40,487 nucleotides of DNA from Planctomycetales bacterium. Its GTDB lineage: Bacteria > Planctomycetota > Planctomycetia > Pirellulales > S012-138. Made by a program: the position numbers and the translations under genes. A model generated the notes under the pieces. That model worked only from the letters and a program-made list of their open reading frames with translations. It searched no databases and was not told where the DNA came from. The DNA is taken from positions 1-40,487 of the forward strand of contig WFOE01000103.1 in NCBI GenBank assembly GCA_015488215.1, given 5' to 3'. This document shows positions 33,748 to 38,789 of the stretch, one piece after another (positions within the stretch are counted from its first letter, which is position 1; every line of letters begins with the position of its first letter).

Positions 33748-34845
33748 TCAGCACGATTCCAGAGCCGAAACCCGCTGCGGGCGGCCCGGCACACACCCGT
33801 CCCGATTGCGATGGGCCACCAGCTCGGCCAGGATGCTGATTGCGATTTCCATCACGGTCTGCGAGCCGATGTCGATCCCCACCGGGGCGTAAACTTCCTC
33901 CAGCCGTTCGCGGGGAATCCCCTGACTGGCCAGGTCTTCGAAGATGAGCCGGATTTTCCGCCGGGAGCCGATCATGCCAATGTAGCGCGCCGGCTTCTGG
34001 ATTAGGTGGAACAGAGCCTCTTCGTCGTGATTGTGGCCTCGGGTAACAATCAGGCAGTAGGTCCGCTGGTCCACCTCCAACTGAGGCAGCAGCTCGCCAA
34101 AAGGACCGCAGAGCCGACGATGGACGCCGGGAAAACGCTCTTTTGAGAGCAAGTCCTCGCGGTCGTCCATTACCCAGACTTCAAAGTCCAAGTCCACGGC
34201 CAGTCGGGCCACCGCTTGCCCCACGTGTCCTGCGCCGACAATCACCAGCCGGCATCGGGCCGGCTGGGGCAAATAGGCCACCTTGCCCGTGGTGTAGGGA
34301 CGCACTCTCCGGTCTAACGGGCGCAAGCCCTGAACCACCTGTTCTACGGCCTCGGCCGGAAGCTGCTCCGCGGTGGACGCTATTACCCGACCTTCCTGGT
34401 CCAGCAGCAGCCGGTCGCCCGGGACCAAGCCGGGCAACTGGGCTCCGGGGAGCAGCACCGCCTCGGTGCTGCCGTCGCCCCGGCTCAGGTGATGGGCCAG
34501 TTGCCGCAGATATTCTCTGGCCTGGGGCTGGCTCAACGGGTCCAGCAGCACGGTCATTCGCCCGCCGCAGATCAGCCCGTCGTCCCAACCGTAGTCGTTG
34601 TCCAGGTTGAAGGTAATCAGCTCCGGAGAAGCATCCGGGGACAGCCCCAGCGCGCGGCGTTTGACTTCCGCCTCCACGCAGCCGCCGCCCAGCGTGCCGA
34701 TCTGCTTGCCCTGTGGCGTAACCAGCATGCAAGCGCCGGCTTTCTGCGGGGTGGAGCCGCGCGTTTCCACCAGACGGCAGAACACCCCCCGAAAGCCCTC
34801 CTGCTGCGCAAGTCGGGCAACCTGCGCGATTACGTCGCGGATCAT
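33748..34845 (-). CDS. xdhC: XdhC/CoxF-family molybdenum cofactor insertion protein
   Basis: A 365-residue XdhC. The N-terminal domain shows RGSTPQKAGACMLVTPQG, GTLGGGCVEAEV and LICGGRM, the family hallmarks; the C-terminal half is a Rossmann fold (VIVGAGHVGQAVARLA at about 204-219) followed by GSRRK and APVGIDIGSQTVMEIAISI. XdhC holds molybdopterin and helps sulfurate it before insertion into xanthine- or CO-dehydrogenase-type enzymes. No such enzyme gene lies in this window. It is the first gene of a two-gene operon with the MocA-like protein. Confidence 0.93.
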   Translation of the reverse strand: MIRDVIAQVARLAQQEGFRGVFCRLVETRGSTPQKAGACMLVTPQGKQIGTLGGGCVEAEVKRRALGLSPDASPELITFNLDNDYGWDDGLICGGRMTVLLDPLSQPQAREYLRQLAHHLSRGDGSTEAVLLPGAQLPGLVPGDRLLLDQEGRVIASTAEQLPAEAVEQVVQGLRPLDRRVRPYTTGKVAYLPQPARCRLVIVGAGHVGQAVARLAVDLDFEVWVMDDREDLLSKERFPGVHRRLCGPFGELLPQLEVDQRTYCLIVTRGHNHDEEALFHLIQKPARYIGMIGSRRKIRLIFEDLASQGIPRERLEEVYAPVGIDIGSQTVMEIAISILAELVAHRNRDGCVPGRPQRVSALESC

Positions 34846-36055: not shown

Positions 36056-36484
36056 TCAGGGGGCCGCAGCACTTTGGACTTCCAGGGTGAGCTCCACGGG
36101 AGCGTCGGCGGCCACTTCGACGGTAAGCTGCGACTGCTTGTTGAACTGCACGGCCACCGGCGGCGGTCCTGGGCTTGTTGCCGCAGCGCTTTCTTCCACG
36201 CCCTCCAACGGCACCTGAAGTTGGGCGGCGGAATACACCTCGACACGGTACACGCCCGGAAACGGCCCCTCGGCCGCTGGGATGTGGAACTCCCCGTCTT
36301 TGACCAGGGCGTAACACTTTGGGCCACGGGTTCCCTGGATCGGCACCAACACCACCGAACCACTCTCAAGCGGCTTGCCGTCCAACCGCACCGTGCCGCG
36401 GACTTCCTGGCCCGGCTTTCTAGCCGAATCGCACCCGGTGAGAGCCACGCTGCAACATACGACCAACACACAGAGGATGCGCAT
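36056..36484 (-). CDS. Small lipoprotein with carboxypeptidase-regulatory-like fold
   Basis: A 142-residue protein. The lipobox ALTGC (residues 14-18) marks it as a lipoprotein. The mature part, [42 protein letters not shown], shows the GxVxxxGxPlxxaxVxf pattern of the planctomycete carboxypeptidase-regulatory-like (transthyretin-like) lipoproteins that are very common in this phylum. The rest is a beta-sandwich with a Pro-rich loop. Its neighbours on both sides are exported proteins on the same strand, 33 bases from the next upstream gene. Function unknown. Confidence 0.85.
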
Positions 36485-36517: not shown

Positions 36518-37279
36518 CTAGCGATTGCCGGCATCTTCTGGGACGGCGCCGTTCCGCAGCCGACAATTGCGCACTTGGATTACTTCGGCCAGGTGGGAAC
36601 GATTGCCCTGGGTGGTGATGGAACGAATCGTCAGCGGAAGGTCCCAGCGCCCCTGGCGTTTCCACTCCAGCATCACCGTGGTGCTGCGGACCAGCAGGCC
36701 GCTTTTCCGATTCCAGAACGAAACCGTGTACACCCGCGGCAGATACTTTCCTTGGGCGTTGCGAACTGCGTCCAGCACCGAGATGGTGAAATGCAGCGGT
36801 CCCATGTCCCGCGATACTTGCGCAATCAAATCACCGCGGATGCGGTATTGACTGTGCATCGGGTCGTTGCGAAAGCGGATGAGCCGCCCCAGCGGATGCG
36901 ACGCCTGTTCCGCGACGAACTCCACGTCGAAACGATACTCGTCGGTTGCGGCGCGGTGCTGGACTACGGATTCAAAGCGGCGTTTTAGCGGAACAAACTC
37001 CACGGGAATGGGTTCGTTCCACTTGACCTTCAGTTCCGGGGTTACCACCACGTCGCGCACCAGGTGTTTTCCGTTGCTTTGCAACCAAAGCTCGGCTTCG
37101 AAGCCGGGAAAATCTTTCCACTGGGCCCGCGCCTCGTGGGCGCGAACCATCACCTGCTGGGCGTCTTCTGCCTGGGACTTGTCCGCCTCGGGCTTCTCCG
37201 CCTGGGCCAAGCCCACCACGGCAGCCACCACCGGGCAGAGGAACGCAATCAGACCGCAGCTCCAAAGGGAAACTCGCAT
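36518..37279 (-). CDS. Exported DUF3386-like protein
   Basis: A 253-residue protein. The start at 37279 has AGGAG eight bases upstream and is followed by a signal peptide (MRVSLWSCGLIAFLCPVV, cleaved near LAQA). The mature part begins with a charged spacer, then VMVRAHEARAQWKDFPGFEAEL, which resembles DUF3386 of cyanobacteria and planctomycetes. Strands such as VYTVSFWNRKSGLLVRSTTVMLEWKRQGRWDLPLTIRSITTQ follow. It lies between the DUF1559 protein and a small lipoprotein on the same strand. The family assignment is moderate; the role is unknown. Confidence 0.7.
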   Translation of the reverse strand: MRVSLWSCGLIAFLCPVVAAVVGLAQAEKPEADKSQAEDAQQVMVRAHEARAQWKDFPGFEAELWLQSNGKHLVRDVVVTPELKVKWNEPIPVEFVPLKRRFESVVQHRAATDEYRFDVEFVAEQASHPLGRLIRFRNDPMHSQYRIRGDLIAQVSRDMGPLHFTISVLDAVRNAQGKYLPRVYTVSFWNRKSGLLVRSTTVMLEWKRQGRWDLPLTIRSITTQGNRSHLAEVIQVRNCRLRNGAVPEDAGNR

Positions 37280-37443: not shown

Positions 37444-38328
37444 CTATGGCGAGGCCGTCACGGCTTCCCGTCCGTTTCGGGTAGCCAGGGCATCCAGTAC
37501 GGCCGCGTCGATATCCGGAGAGAGCATCCGCACGGCCGCATCGGCAAAAGCCATGTTCACCCCGTTGGGATGATCGCTGCGAAAGGTGTGAAACTCGTCG
37601 AAGCCGCTGACCAGTGCCTGGGCGTTAAACACCCCGGCGGTGGTTGCAATCGAAAAGCCCGGATAGCCGATCCCCCACTGCACCACGCCCCCACGGAGCT
37701 TGTCAGTCCCGGCAAAAAAGTAGTTTTGCAGGCCGTAGTCCATCTCGCCTAGCAGGATTGTGTTGGAAGTGCCGTCCTGGATACGGCCCAGCGTGGTGGC
37801 AAACTGATCGCTGCTAAAGACAAACGCTCCGTTGCGCGGGCCGCGCCAAGGATTCTGGCTGCCCACGCATACGGCGTAGCTGGCCGGAGCTCCTTCGTAG
37901 GGAGCCTTGGGATGGGGCACGGGCCGAGGCAAGTCCATCGTAGGGCACAGGAATCCCGGCAACGTTTCTTTGATCAACTGGTTGTTCGTACCATGAAAGA
38001 CCGACTGAGTCAGGTCGAACCGCTGGTGCAGGTTGCTCTGTTCCAGATACGGCAACGCAGAAGTAAATGCACTGTGGAACGTTGTCCCCCATTGGCTAGC
38101 AAAGGGAAATCGCCCTTGGGCATCATGATGCAGGTGCATGGCCAGCGCAAGCTGCCGCAGATTGTTCTGGCAGGAGCTGCGGCGCCCACTTTCCCGAGCA
38201 GCCTGGACGGCCGAAAGCAACAGCCCAACCAGAATCCCCACAATGGCAAGAACCACCAGCAGCTCGATCAGAGTAAAAGCTGCCCGCACGCGGACAGAAC
38301 CGACGGGAGCAGATCGCAAGGCCAGCAT
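37444..38328 (-). CDS. DUF1559 prepilin-like protein
   Basis: A 294-residue protein. ATG 38328 has GGAGGTG four bases upstream. The N-terminus AFTLIELLVVLAIVGILVGLLLSAVQ is a type IV prepilin/pseudopilin signal with the helix that follows; CQNNLRQLALAMHLHHD is the DUF1559 core. Towards the C-terminus HPNGVNMAFADAAVRMLS corresponds to the HxGVNxxFxDGSV motif (the so-called H-X9-DG), with DA replacing DG. Planctomycete genomes carry dozens of these; they are processed and exported and may be minor pilins or surface proteins. It is driven by the strong promoter at 38423-38450. Confidence 0.92.
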   Translation of the reverse strand: MLALRSAPVGSVRVRAAFTLIELLVVLAIVGILVGLLLSAVQAARESGRRSSCQNNLRQLALAMHLHHDAQGRFPFASQWGTTFHSAFTSALPYLEQSNLHQRFDLTQSVFHGTNNQLIKETLPGFLCPTMDLPRPVPHPKAPYEGAPASYAVCVGSQNPWRGPRNGAFVFSSDQFATTLGRIQDGTSNTILLGEMDYGLQNYFFAGTDKLRGGVVQWGIGYPGFSIATTAGVFNAQALVSGFDEFHTFRSDHPNGVNMAFADAAVRMLSPDIDAAVLDALATRNGREAVTASP

Positions 38329-38422
38329 GACACACCTCCCAAACAGCAAGGGGGGAACCAGGCGTGGCTTGCTGGCCTTGGCGGCTGGCTAGCACGCTAT
38401 TGAGACGCAATTTCAATAGCGG

Positions 38423-38450
38423 ATAATACACGATGCCAATCCGGTGTCAA
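38423..38450 (-). promoter_or_regulatory. Strong candidate promoter for the DUF1559 gene
   Basis: Minus strand TTGACA (38445-38450), 16-base spacer, TATTAT (38423-38428). Six of six and five of six matches to the housekeeping consensus, in the only AT-rich stretch of the region. Confidence 0.65.
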
Positions 38451-38519
38451 CTGCTTTTTCGGAAAAAGTCCATTTCCGGCGAATTTTCAGTATCTTCTGC
38501 TTGCCATTGAAGTGATACA

Positions 38520-38538
38520 GATAATCAGTATCATTATC
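38520..38538. promoter_or_regulatory. Fur-box operator upstream of hemP
   Basis: GATAATCAGTATCATTATC on the plus strand. Its complement matches the classical 19-base Fur consensus at 17 of 19 positions. TGATAC (38513-38518) and GTATCA (38528-38533) give a second overlapping half-site pair, as in extended Fur sites. TTGAAG (38507-38512) and TATCAT (38529-38534), 16 bases apart, form a promoter within the site, so Fur would block it. The site begins 63 bases before the hemP ATG. Confidence 0.7.
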
Positions 38539-38582
38539 ATTGCTTTCTCTCCGTTCCCCTTGCCCCATCGGGAAGTGGCCCC

Positions 38583-38789
38583 ATGAACCAGTCCGAACAG
38601 CCGGAACAGCGCCAACACGCCCGGCAAGACCAGCCGCCACCGGATGCTTCGCTTCCCCGGGAAGCGCTGCCTCGGATTATTCCGGTCGAACAACTGCTGG
38701 GCCAGGACGACGAGGTGCTCATCCTCTGCGGTTCGCAGCTTTACCGGCTTCGCCGCACGCGCCAGGGAAAACTCATTCTGCACAAGTAA
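38583..38789 (+). CDS. hemP: Hemin uptake protein HemP/HmuP
   Basis: A 68-residue protein whose C-terminal half, EVLILCGSQLYRLRRTRQGKLILHK, has the HemP pattern (hydrophobic strand, G-x-x-Y-x-LR-x-TRxGKLIL-K). HemP proteins are small regulators or accessories of heme and siderophore uptake, usually iron-repressed. The N-terminal 30 residues are a Gln/Pro/Glu-rich tail. It stands alone directly behind a Fur box; no heme receptor or ABC transporter is in the window. Given its size it could be missed by automatic annotation. Confidence 0.85.
   Translation: MNQSEQPEQRQHARQDQPPPDASLPREALPRIIPVEQLLGQDDEVLILCGSQLYRLRRTRQGKLILHK

Follow-up and report, generated by a model that had tools for sequence, protein, structure and literature searches.

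Proteins of the HemP/HmuP/ChuP family are known regulators of heme-receptor genes and act on other genes than their own (PMC9131926), and whether they do so as DNA co-activators or as mRNA regulators is disputed. The core of the HmuP-responsive element (HPRE) of proteobacterial heme receptors, GCCAGC, has been quoted for the leaders of two heme-receptor genes, chuR (CCCGCAAGCCAGCCGACAGCCAGCCAGCG) and vbuA (PMC9131926). A receptor-less hemP also exists in the form of ydiE, which Fur represses in Salmonella and which belongs to the core Fur regulon of E. coli (PMC3212961, PMC10164565). The hemP copies of Klebsiella, Azospirillum and Acinetobacter have no receptor beside them in the DNA that we fetched. 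Both a stand-alone hemP and the action of HemP/HmuP in trans are already known. In Caulobacter, DUF4198 genes rank with those most strongly repressed by Fur (PMC3751524). Very little has been described of iron control in planctomycetes: a full-text literature search with Planctomycetes and "Fur box" returned only work on Chlamydiota, and one for "DUF3386" found nothing.

hemP and its Fur boxes

We examined a planctomycete stretch of 40,487 nucleotides (the window), for which the original prediction had described a stand-alone hemP gene behind a Fur box. The features on the hemP side are these:

38507 to 38534, plus strand: promoter-like TTGAAG-16-TATCAT for hemP, from a consensus scan only, covered by the boxes
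38514 to 38538, no strand assigned: two overlapping predicted Fur boxes in the hemP promoter (38514-38532 and 38520-38538), conserved in two congeners (G001 and G002)
38583 to 38789, plus strand: hemP, HemP/HmuP/YdiE family, 68 residues
38965 to 40422, plus strand: zwf, the next gene downstream (TIGR00871, 572 bits)

The 68-residue protein belongs to the HemP/HmuP family by its C-terminal HemP domain, which scores 46.2 bits with PF10636 against a curated cut-off of 25, and its relatives in the PDB by sequence are 2loj, 4ynx and 2jra. The gene is present in 39 of 58 relatives. No TonB-dependent heme receptor adjoins hemP in the window neighborhood, where the proteobacterial hemP-heme receptor arrangement would place one, and the genome's two TonB receptors both lie on other contigs. 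None of the other hemP loci compared has a zwf homologue beside hemP, and zwf stands outside the conserved neighborhood.

The predicted Fur site at 38520-38538 agrees with GATAATGATAATCATTATC at 17 of 19 positions on the minus strand and the overlapping site at 38514-38532 at 16 of 19, with no match to the Fur consensus in 100 dinucleotide shuffles of the window. With up to three mismatches to GATAATGATAATCATTATC allowed, the whole 4.29-Mb genome contains only the two hemP sites, and the reversed control pattern gives none. On all of these points, from the HemP protein to the overlapping sites, the possible promoter beneath them and zwf as the next gene without a heme receptor, the original prediction was correct. 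The Fur homologue that it called for is present as the one FUR-family gene found in the genome (G000:C245, 90.9 bits), whose product matches the Fur entries 4ets and 6d57 (Campylobacter type) best in the PDB, with PerR and Zur ranking lower. When sites with at least 14 of 19 positions of GATAWTGAKAMTCAWTATC were counted up to 500 bp upstream of hemP, they occurred in 26 of 47 hemP upstream regions compared with 58 of 2391 control windows. With sites kept across relatives and one Fur homologue in the genome, control of hemP by iron and Fur is well supported by sequence comparison.

A degenerate box, searched genome-wide with up to three mismatches, added only C107:9679-9703 and a site on C64, which we dismissed as a chance match inside a coding gene. 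At C107 (L103), overlapping Fur-type boxes stand directly 5' of the gene for a 108-residue protein without a Pfam match; the congener G001 has a homologue (61% identical), also with a box. Judged from its boxes, this gene is predicted to belong to the Fur regulon as a third member. In all, three promoters came out of the genome-wide scan, a result that bears out the proposed use of the site as an iron-regulon marker and provides a usable Fur motif for planctomycete genomes.

Several further observations concern hemP and the window. At the IxH position of HemP (VLILCGSQ in the window protein, 38583-38789) most planctomycete proteins have a histidine and all three members of the genus a cysteine, possibly a change of heme ligand. 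Tandem hemP duplicates 230-360 bp apart occur at two loci (L052 in G009 and L043 in G057), and a tblastn search of plasmids with the window HemP gave no match. In five genomes (L055, L054, L057, L078 and L079) a CobA/HemD-type protein (VYLVGAGPGDPGLLTL...) is encoded convergently and close to hemP, a possible link to tetrapyrrole synthesis. Elsewhere in the window an XdhC/CoxI-family protein (33748-34845, minus strand; PF13478, 145 bits) is encoded apparently alone.

The divergent operon

The original prediction missed the divergent promoter, its Fur-type box and the operon behind it. hemP lies head-to-head with an operon DUF1559 - DUF3386 - lipoprotein across an intergenic gap of 250 bp, with the following features:

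38423 to 38450, minus strand: promoter-like TTGACA-16-TATTAT (11 of 12 positions) for the operon, from a consensus scan only
38396 to 38414, no strand assigned: second Fur-type box, GCTATTGAGACGCAATTTC, just past the divergent -10, 16 of 19 positions of GATAWTGAKAMTCAWTATC
37444 to 38328, minus strand: DUF1559 (SBP_bac_10) type IV pilin-like protein, operon gene 1 (PF07596, 134 bits; PF07963, 26 bits), start taken as the ATG at 38326-38328
36518 to 37279, minus strand: DUF3386 protein (PF11866, 80.7 bits; structure model of pLDDT 86, searched with Foldseek)
36056 to 36484, minus strand: putative lipoprotein of family F3, no Pfam match, conserved homologues in the same place

In the alignment of the window with the two congeners, the boxes of hemP and of the divergent operon both stand out as islands of identity. 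The pairing itself extends well beyond the genus. From the coordinates of hemP and of the DUF4198/DUF3386 gene, of which there are only 1-2 copies per genome, the two lie within 6 kb of each other in 21 of 34 relatives having both genes. The usual order is hemP and, divergently, DUF1559 followed by DUF4198-DUF3386, in some loci with a lipoprotein or PEP-CTERM protein between them; the F3 lipoprotein family is found in 8 of 47 loci. Among 298 genomes drawn from the whole class, hemP and DUF3386 are no more than 10 kb apart in at least 15 of the 61 genomes holding both, and in many class members DUF3386 is unlinked to hemP. Scanning in the reverse direction, from the DUF4198-DUF3386 alignment through the named genome collection, we recovered 12 loci, 10 of them with hemP; of the remaining two, one is cut by a contig end and the other is that of Blastopirellula marina. 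Two separate boxes, mostly spaced by 114-138 bp, were found in 9 of 24 divergent loci. Such a layout is absent from the 23 other hemP loci and present in 9 of 3150 control windows. By this comparison hemP belongs to a conserved divergent pair in which each promoter has one predicted Fur-type box. "Stand-alone" is right in that no receptor is present and zwf comes next, and misleading in that hemP has a conserved divergent partner in a Fur-boxed operon.

Other arrangements also occur within the order Pirellulales. In a second class of hemP locus, TonB and/or a TonB receptor stands beside hemP (G009, G010, G012 and G034), and in another Pirellulales group (L036/L070, L041, L044 and L049) a TPR-repeat protein directly after hemP replaces the DUF1559 operon, with the box retained. 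The host genome has a second DUF3386 gene (G000:C44:8018-8800, L083), which has neither a Fur box of at least 14/19 nor a GCCAGC pair.

The operon products are exported proteins and probably bind iron or heme, or pass it on, at the envelope, where they would stand in for the heme receptor of proteobacterial hemP loci. We infer this role from the predicted fold of the DUF3386 protein, which resembles LolA/LolB ligand carriers, from metal-bound DUF4198 structures and from the Fur repression seen in Caulobacter. The likeness to LolA/LolB is weak (TM about 0.35 by Foldseek), and we do not use it as proof of a ligand. In relatives, DUF3386 is fused to a domain of the DUF4198 metal-binding type, which scores 22.5 bits, below the cut-off of 34, and which is supported as DUF4198 by its structure, resembling DUF4198 structures with bound zinc, cobalt, copper or nickel; a PDB sequence search with the DUF4198-DUF3386 profile gave nothing significant. 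As the window protein is DUF3386 only and the operon has no DUF4198 domain, metal binding cannot be transferred directly to it.

These metals raise the question of whether the boxes are instead read by a FUR-family sensor of another metal or of peroxide (Zur, Mur or PerR type), in which case the module would not concern iron. Such a sensor would fit the zinc, cobalt, copper and nickel of the nearest DUF4198 structures, and only one FUR-family gene is found, whose product could have a ligand other than iron. The site at hemP is, however, an almost classical iron Fur box, Fur entries are the regulator's first matches in the PDB, and HemP-family and DUF4198 genes are regulated by iron and Fur elsewhere (PMC3212961, PMC3751524). 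We consider a different metal or peroxide to be improbable and iron-responsive Fur to be the preferred reading.

The GCCAGC pair in the operon leader

On the minus strand, the sequence that separates the second box from the DUF1559 start is GCTAGCCAGCCGCCAAGGCCAGCAAGCCACG, and two features are located here:

38371 to 38389, minus strand: GCCAGC tandem resembling an HPRE, located in the divergent operon's leader, with its units at 38384-38389 and 38371-38376
38314 to 38404, minus strand: leader segment with a predicted fold, in which the second GCCAGC pairs with the start-codon region AUGCUGGCC and the Shine-Dalgarno sequence lies in a stem

An HPRE is defined by repeated GCCAGC in the 5' leader of a gene for iron uptake, and the window has such repeats, the uptake role being here a putative one. 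The divergent leaders have GCCAGC as their commonest 6-mer, with 18 of 20 loci containing it and 15 containing two or more copies (shuffle means of 1.9 and 0.1 loci, respectively). Close pairs of the motif occur in the same proportion of divergent leaders (15/20, with five lacking one), compared with none of the 20 opposite strands, 27 of 2340 random windows and none of 91 regions upstream of other genes. Repeated GCCAGC was also seen, in fetched DNA, in the leaders of the TonB receptor genes divergent from hemP in Chelatococcus and Methylocystis. In the GC-rich host genome the paired pattern has 74 matches; hence, the pair alone is not diagnostic and we did not use it as a regulon predictor, having dropped it as a genome-wide target finder.

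The frequency of GCCAGC in the genome would also suit a chance neighborhood, in which a Fur-boxed hemP happens to lie beside unrelated genes and the motif matches reflect composition, as would the fact that DUF1559 genes are common in planctomycetes. Against this stand the 21 of 34 genomes that link hemP to a gene of one or two copies, together with a two-box layout and a leader motif that are both far above several controls, and we regard coincidence as very improbable.

If HemP does target the element, the copies behind boxes far from hemP would imply action in trans. Blastopirellula marina DSM 3645 has its hemP and DUF3386 genes on separate contigs, and there the DUF3386 gene and a divergent DUF4198 gene each have a Fur-type box followed by a GCCAGC pair, the boxes being weaker (13-14/19) than those of the window. 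The divergent gene (L116:5882-7531) encodes a DUF4198-like domain fused to Kelch-like repeats. G018 is arranged likewise, its hemP being 310 kb distant, and in G007 and G034 a leader with box and GCCAGC pair lies upstream of a DUF4198 cluster. The suggestion in the original prediction that HemP can act in trans is genuinely strengthened by these leaders at DUF4198/DUF3386 genes far from hemP, although as an idea it was not new, HmuP, HemP and ChuP being known regulators.

HemP could also work on its own as a regulator of TonB receptor genes elsewhere in the genome, with the divergent operon merely a co-regulated neighbor. The genome does have two TonB receptors, hemP stands alone in several Proteobacteria and HmuP/ChuP act on receptor genes (PMC9131926); yet the scan near TonB genes that had been proposed as a check found, at the host's own receptor loci (C40 and C31), neither a Fur-type box of at least 14/19 nor a box with a GCCAGC pair. 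The HPRE-like element sits instead on the neighboring operon, to which the linkage of hemP is kept in those 21 of 34 genomes. We give receptor control at a distance a low probability and favor the divergent operon as the target of HemP.

A more serious competitor, in our view still rather unlikely, is that the tandem GCCAGC is a DNA site, at which HemP serves as transcriptional co-activator or another transcription factor binds. HemP/HmuP of B. japonicum and B. multivorans are described as direct transcriptional activators according to their citation in PMC9131926, and only a short distance separates the motif from the promoter upstream of it. Its position downstream of the predicted start, inside the leader and in a single orientation, argues for RNA, as does the evidence from E. 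meliloti and C. violaceum, which favors action on the mRNA (PMC9131926).

The predicted fold of the window leader has an energy of -41.1 kcal/mol (z of -2.71; 2 of 200 shuffles), and the same fold is predicted in both congeners. In each of nine planctomycete leaders the Shine-Dalgarno sequence is less accessible than in the shuffles on average, several of the nine being individually weak, and its hiding is unconvincing in two proteobacterial leaders. Because of these weak and unconvincing cases, we put forward a hairpin switch as a hypothesis.

A proposed module and the described systems

We propose that hemP makes up, together with the operon DUF1559 - DUF3386 - lipoprotein, a single divergent module of Planctomycetia under iron control. 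With iron, Fur would repress both promoters, each through its own box, and at low iron both transcripts would be made. HemP would then raise expression of the divergent operon through the tandem GCCAGC in the mRNA leader, probably by relieving the hairpin that hides the ribosome-binding site, and would act in trans in relatives where the element precedes distant DUF4198/DUF3386 genes. Taken as a whole, repression of both promoters by Fur and activation of the operon by HemP through an HPRE-type leader element seem to us moderately probable. More tentatively, and with some doubt, we suggest that HemP is an RNA-level activator whose recognition of GCCAGC is common to Proteobacteria and Planctomycetes while the targets differ completely, and that by opening a hairpin in which the element itself covers the start region it switches on a receptor-independent iron or heme system (DUF1559/DUF3386/DUF4198).

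The same leader motif with different targets, far from Proteobacteria, would separate recognition by HemP from the function of its target, in the form of a concrete and mutable 19-nt element that bears on the dispute over mechanism. The model points to a target of HemP in a phylum where none was previously known, and it proposes that DUF3386 and a particular group of DUF1559 proteins serve in the acquisition of iron or heme, a first function for both.

Of the described systems, HmuP/ChuP with the HPRE (Ensifer meliloti shmR; Chromobacterium violaceum chuR and vbuA) is alike in its HemP-family protein, its Fur control and the tandem GCCAGC in the target leader, and the divergent hemP-receptor layout of Chelatococcus and Methylocystis is like that of the window. 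In Planctomycetia, by contrast, the target would be an exported DUF1559/DUF3386/DUF4198 operon and not a TonB receptor, with a dependence on HemP that is here presumed. YdiE of Enterobacteriaceae shares the receptor-less hemP behind a Fur box, whereas in the planctomycetes hemP is accompanied by a conserved, divergent operon that has a Fur box of its own. The iron-responsive clusters of Caulobacter (CC_2193 and CC_3059-3063) have DUF4198 under Fur and are strongly induced by iron limitation; in the relatives of our host DUF4198 is instead fused to DUF3386 and paired with hemP and DUF1559, the window copy being DUF3386 only. Other Pirellulales loci also have hemP beside outer-membrane uptake genes, as hemP - TonB - TonB receptor in G010 and G034 and with the receptor only in G009 and G012, but in those loci we found neither a DUF1559/DUF3386 operon nor a GCCAGC pair with a Fur box. 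Compared with all of these, what is new is the planctomycete module, its two-box layout and an HPRE-type element on non-receptor genes in another phylum, through which HemP would act.
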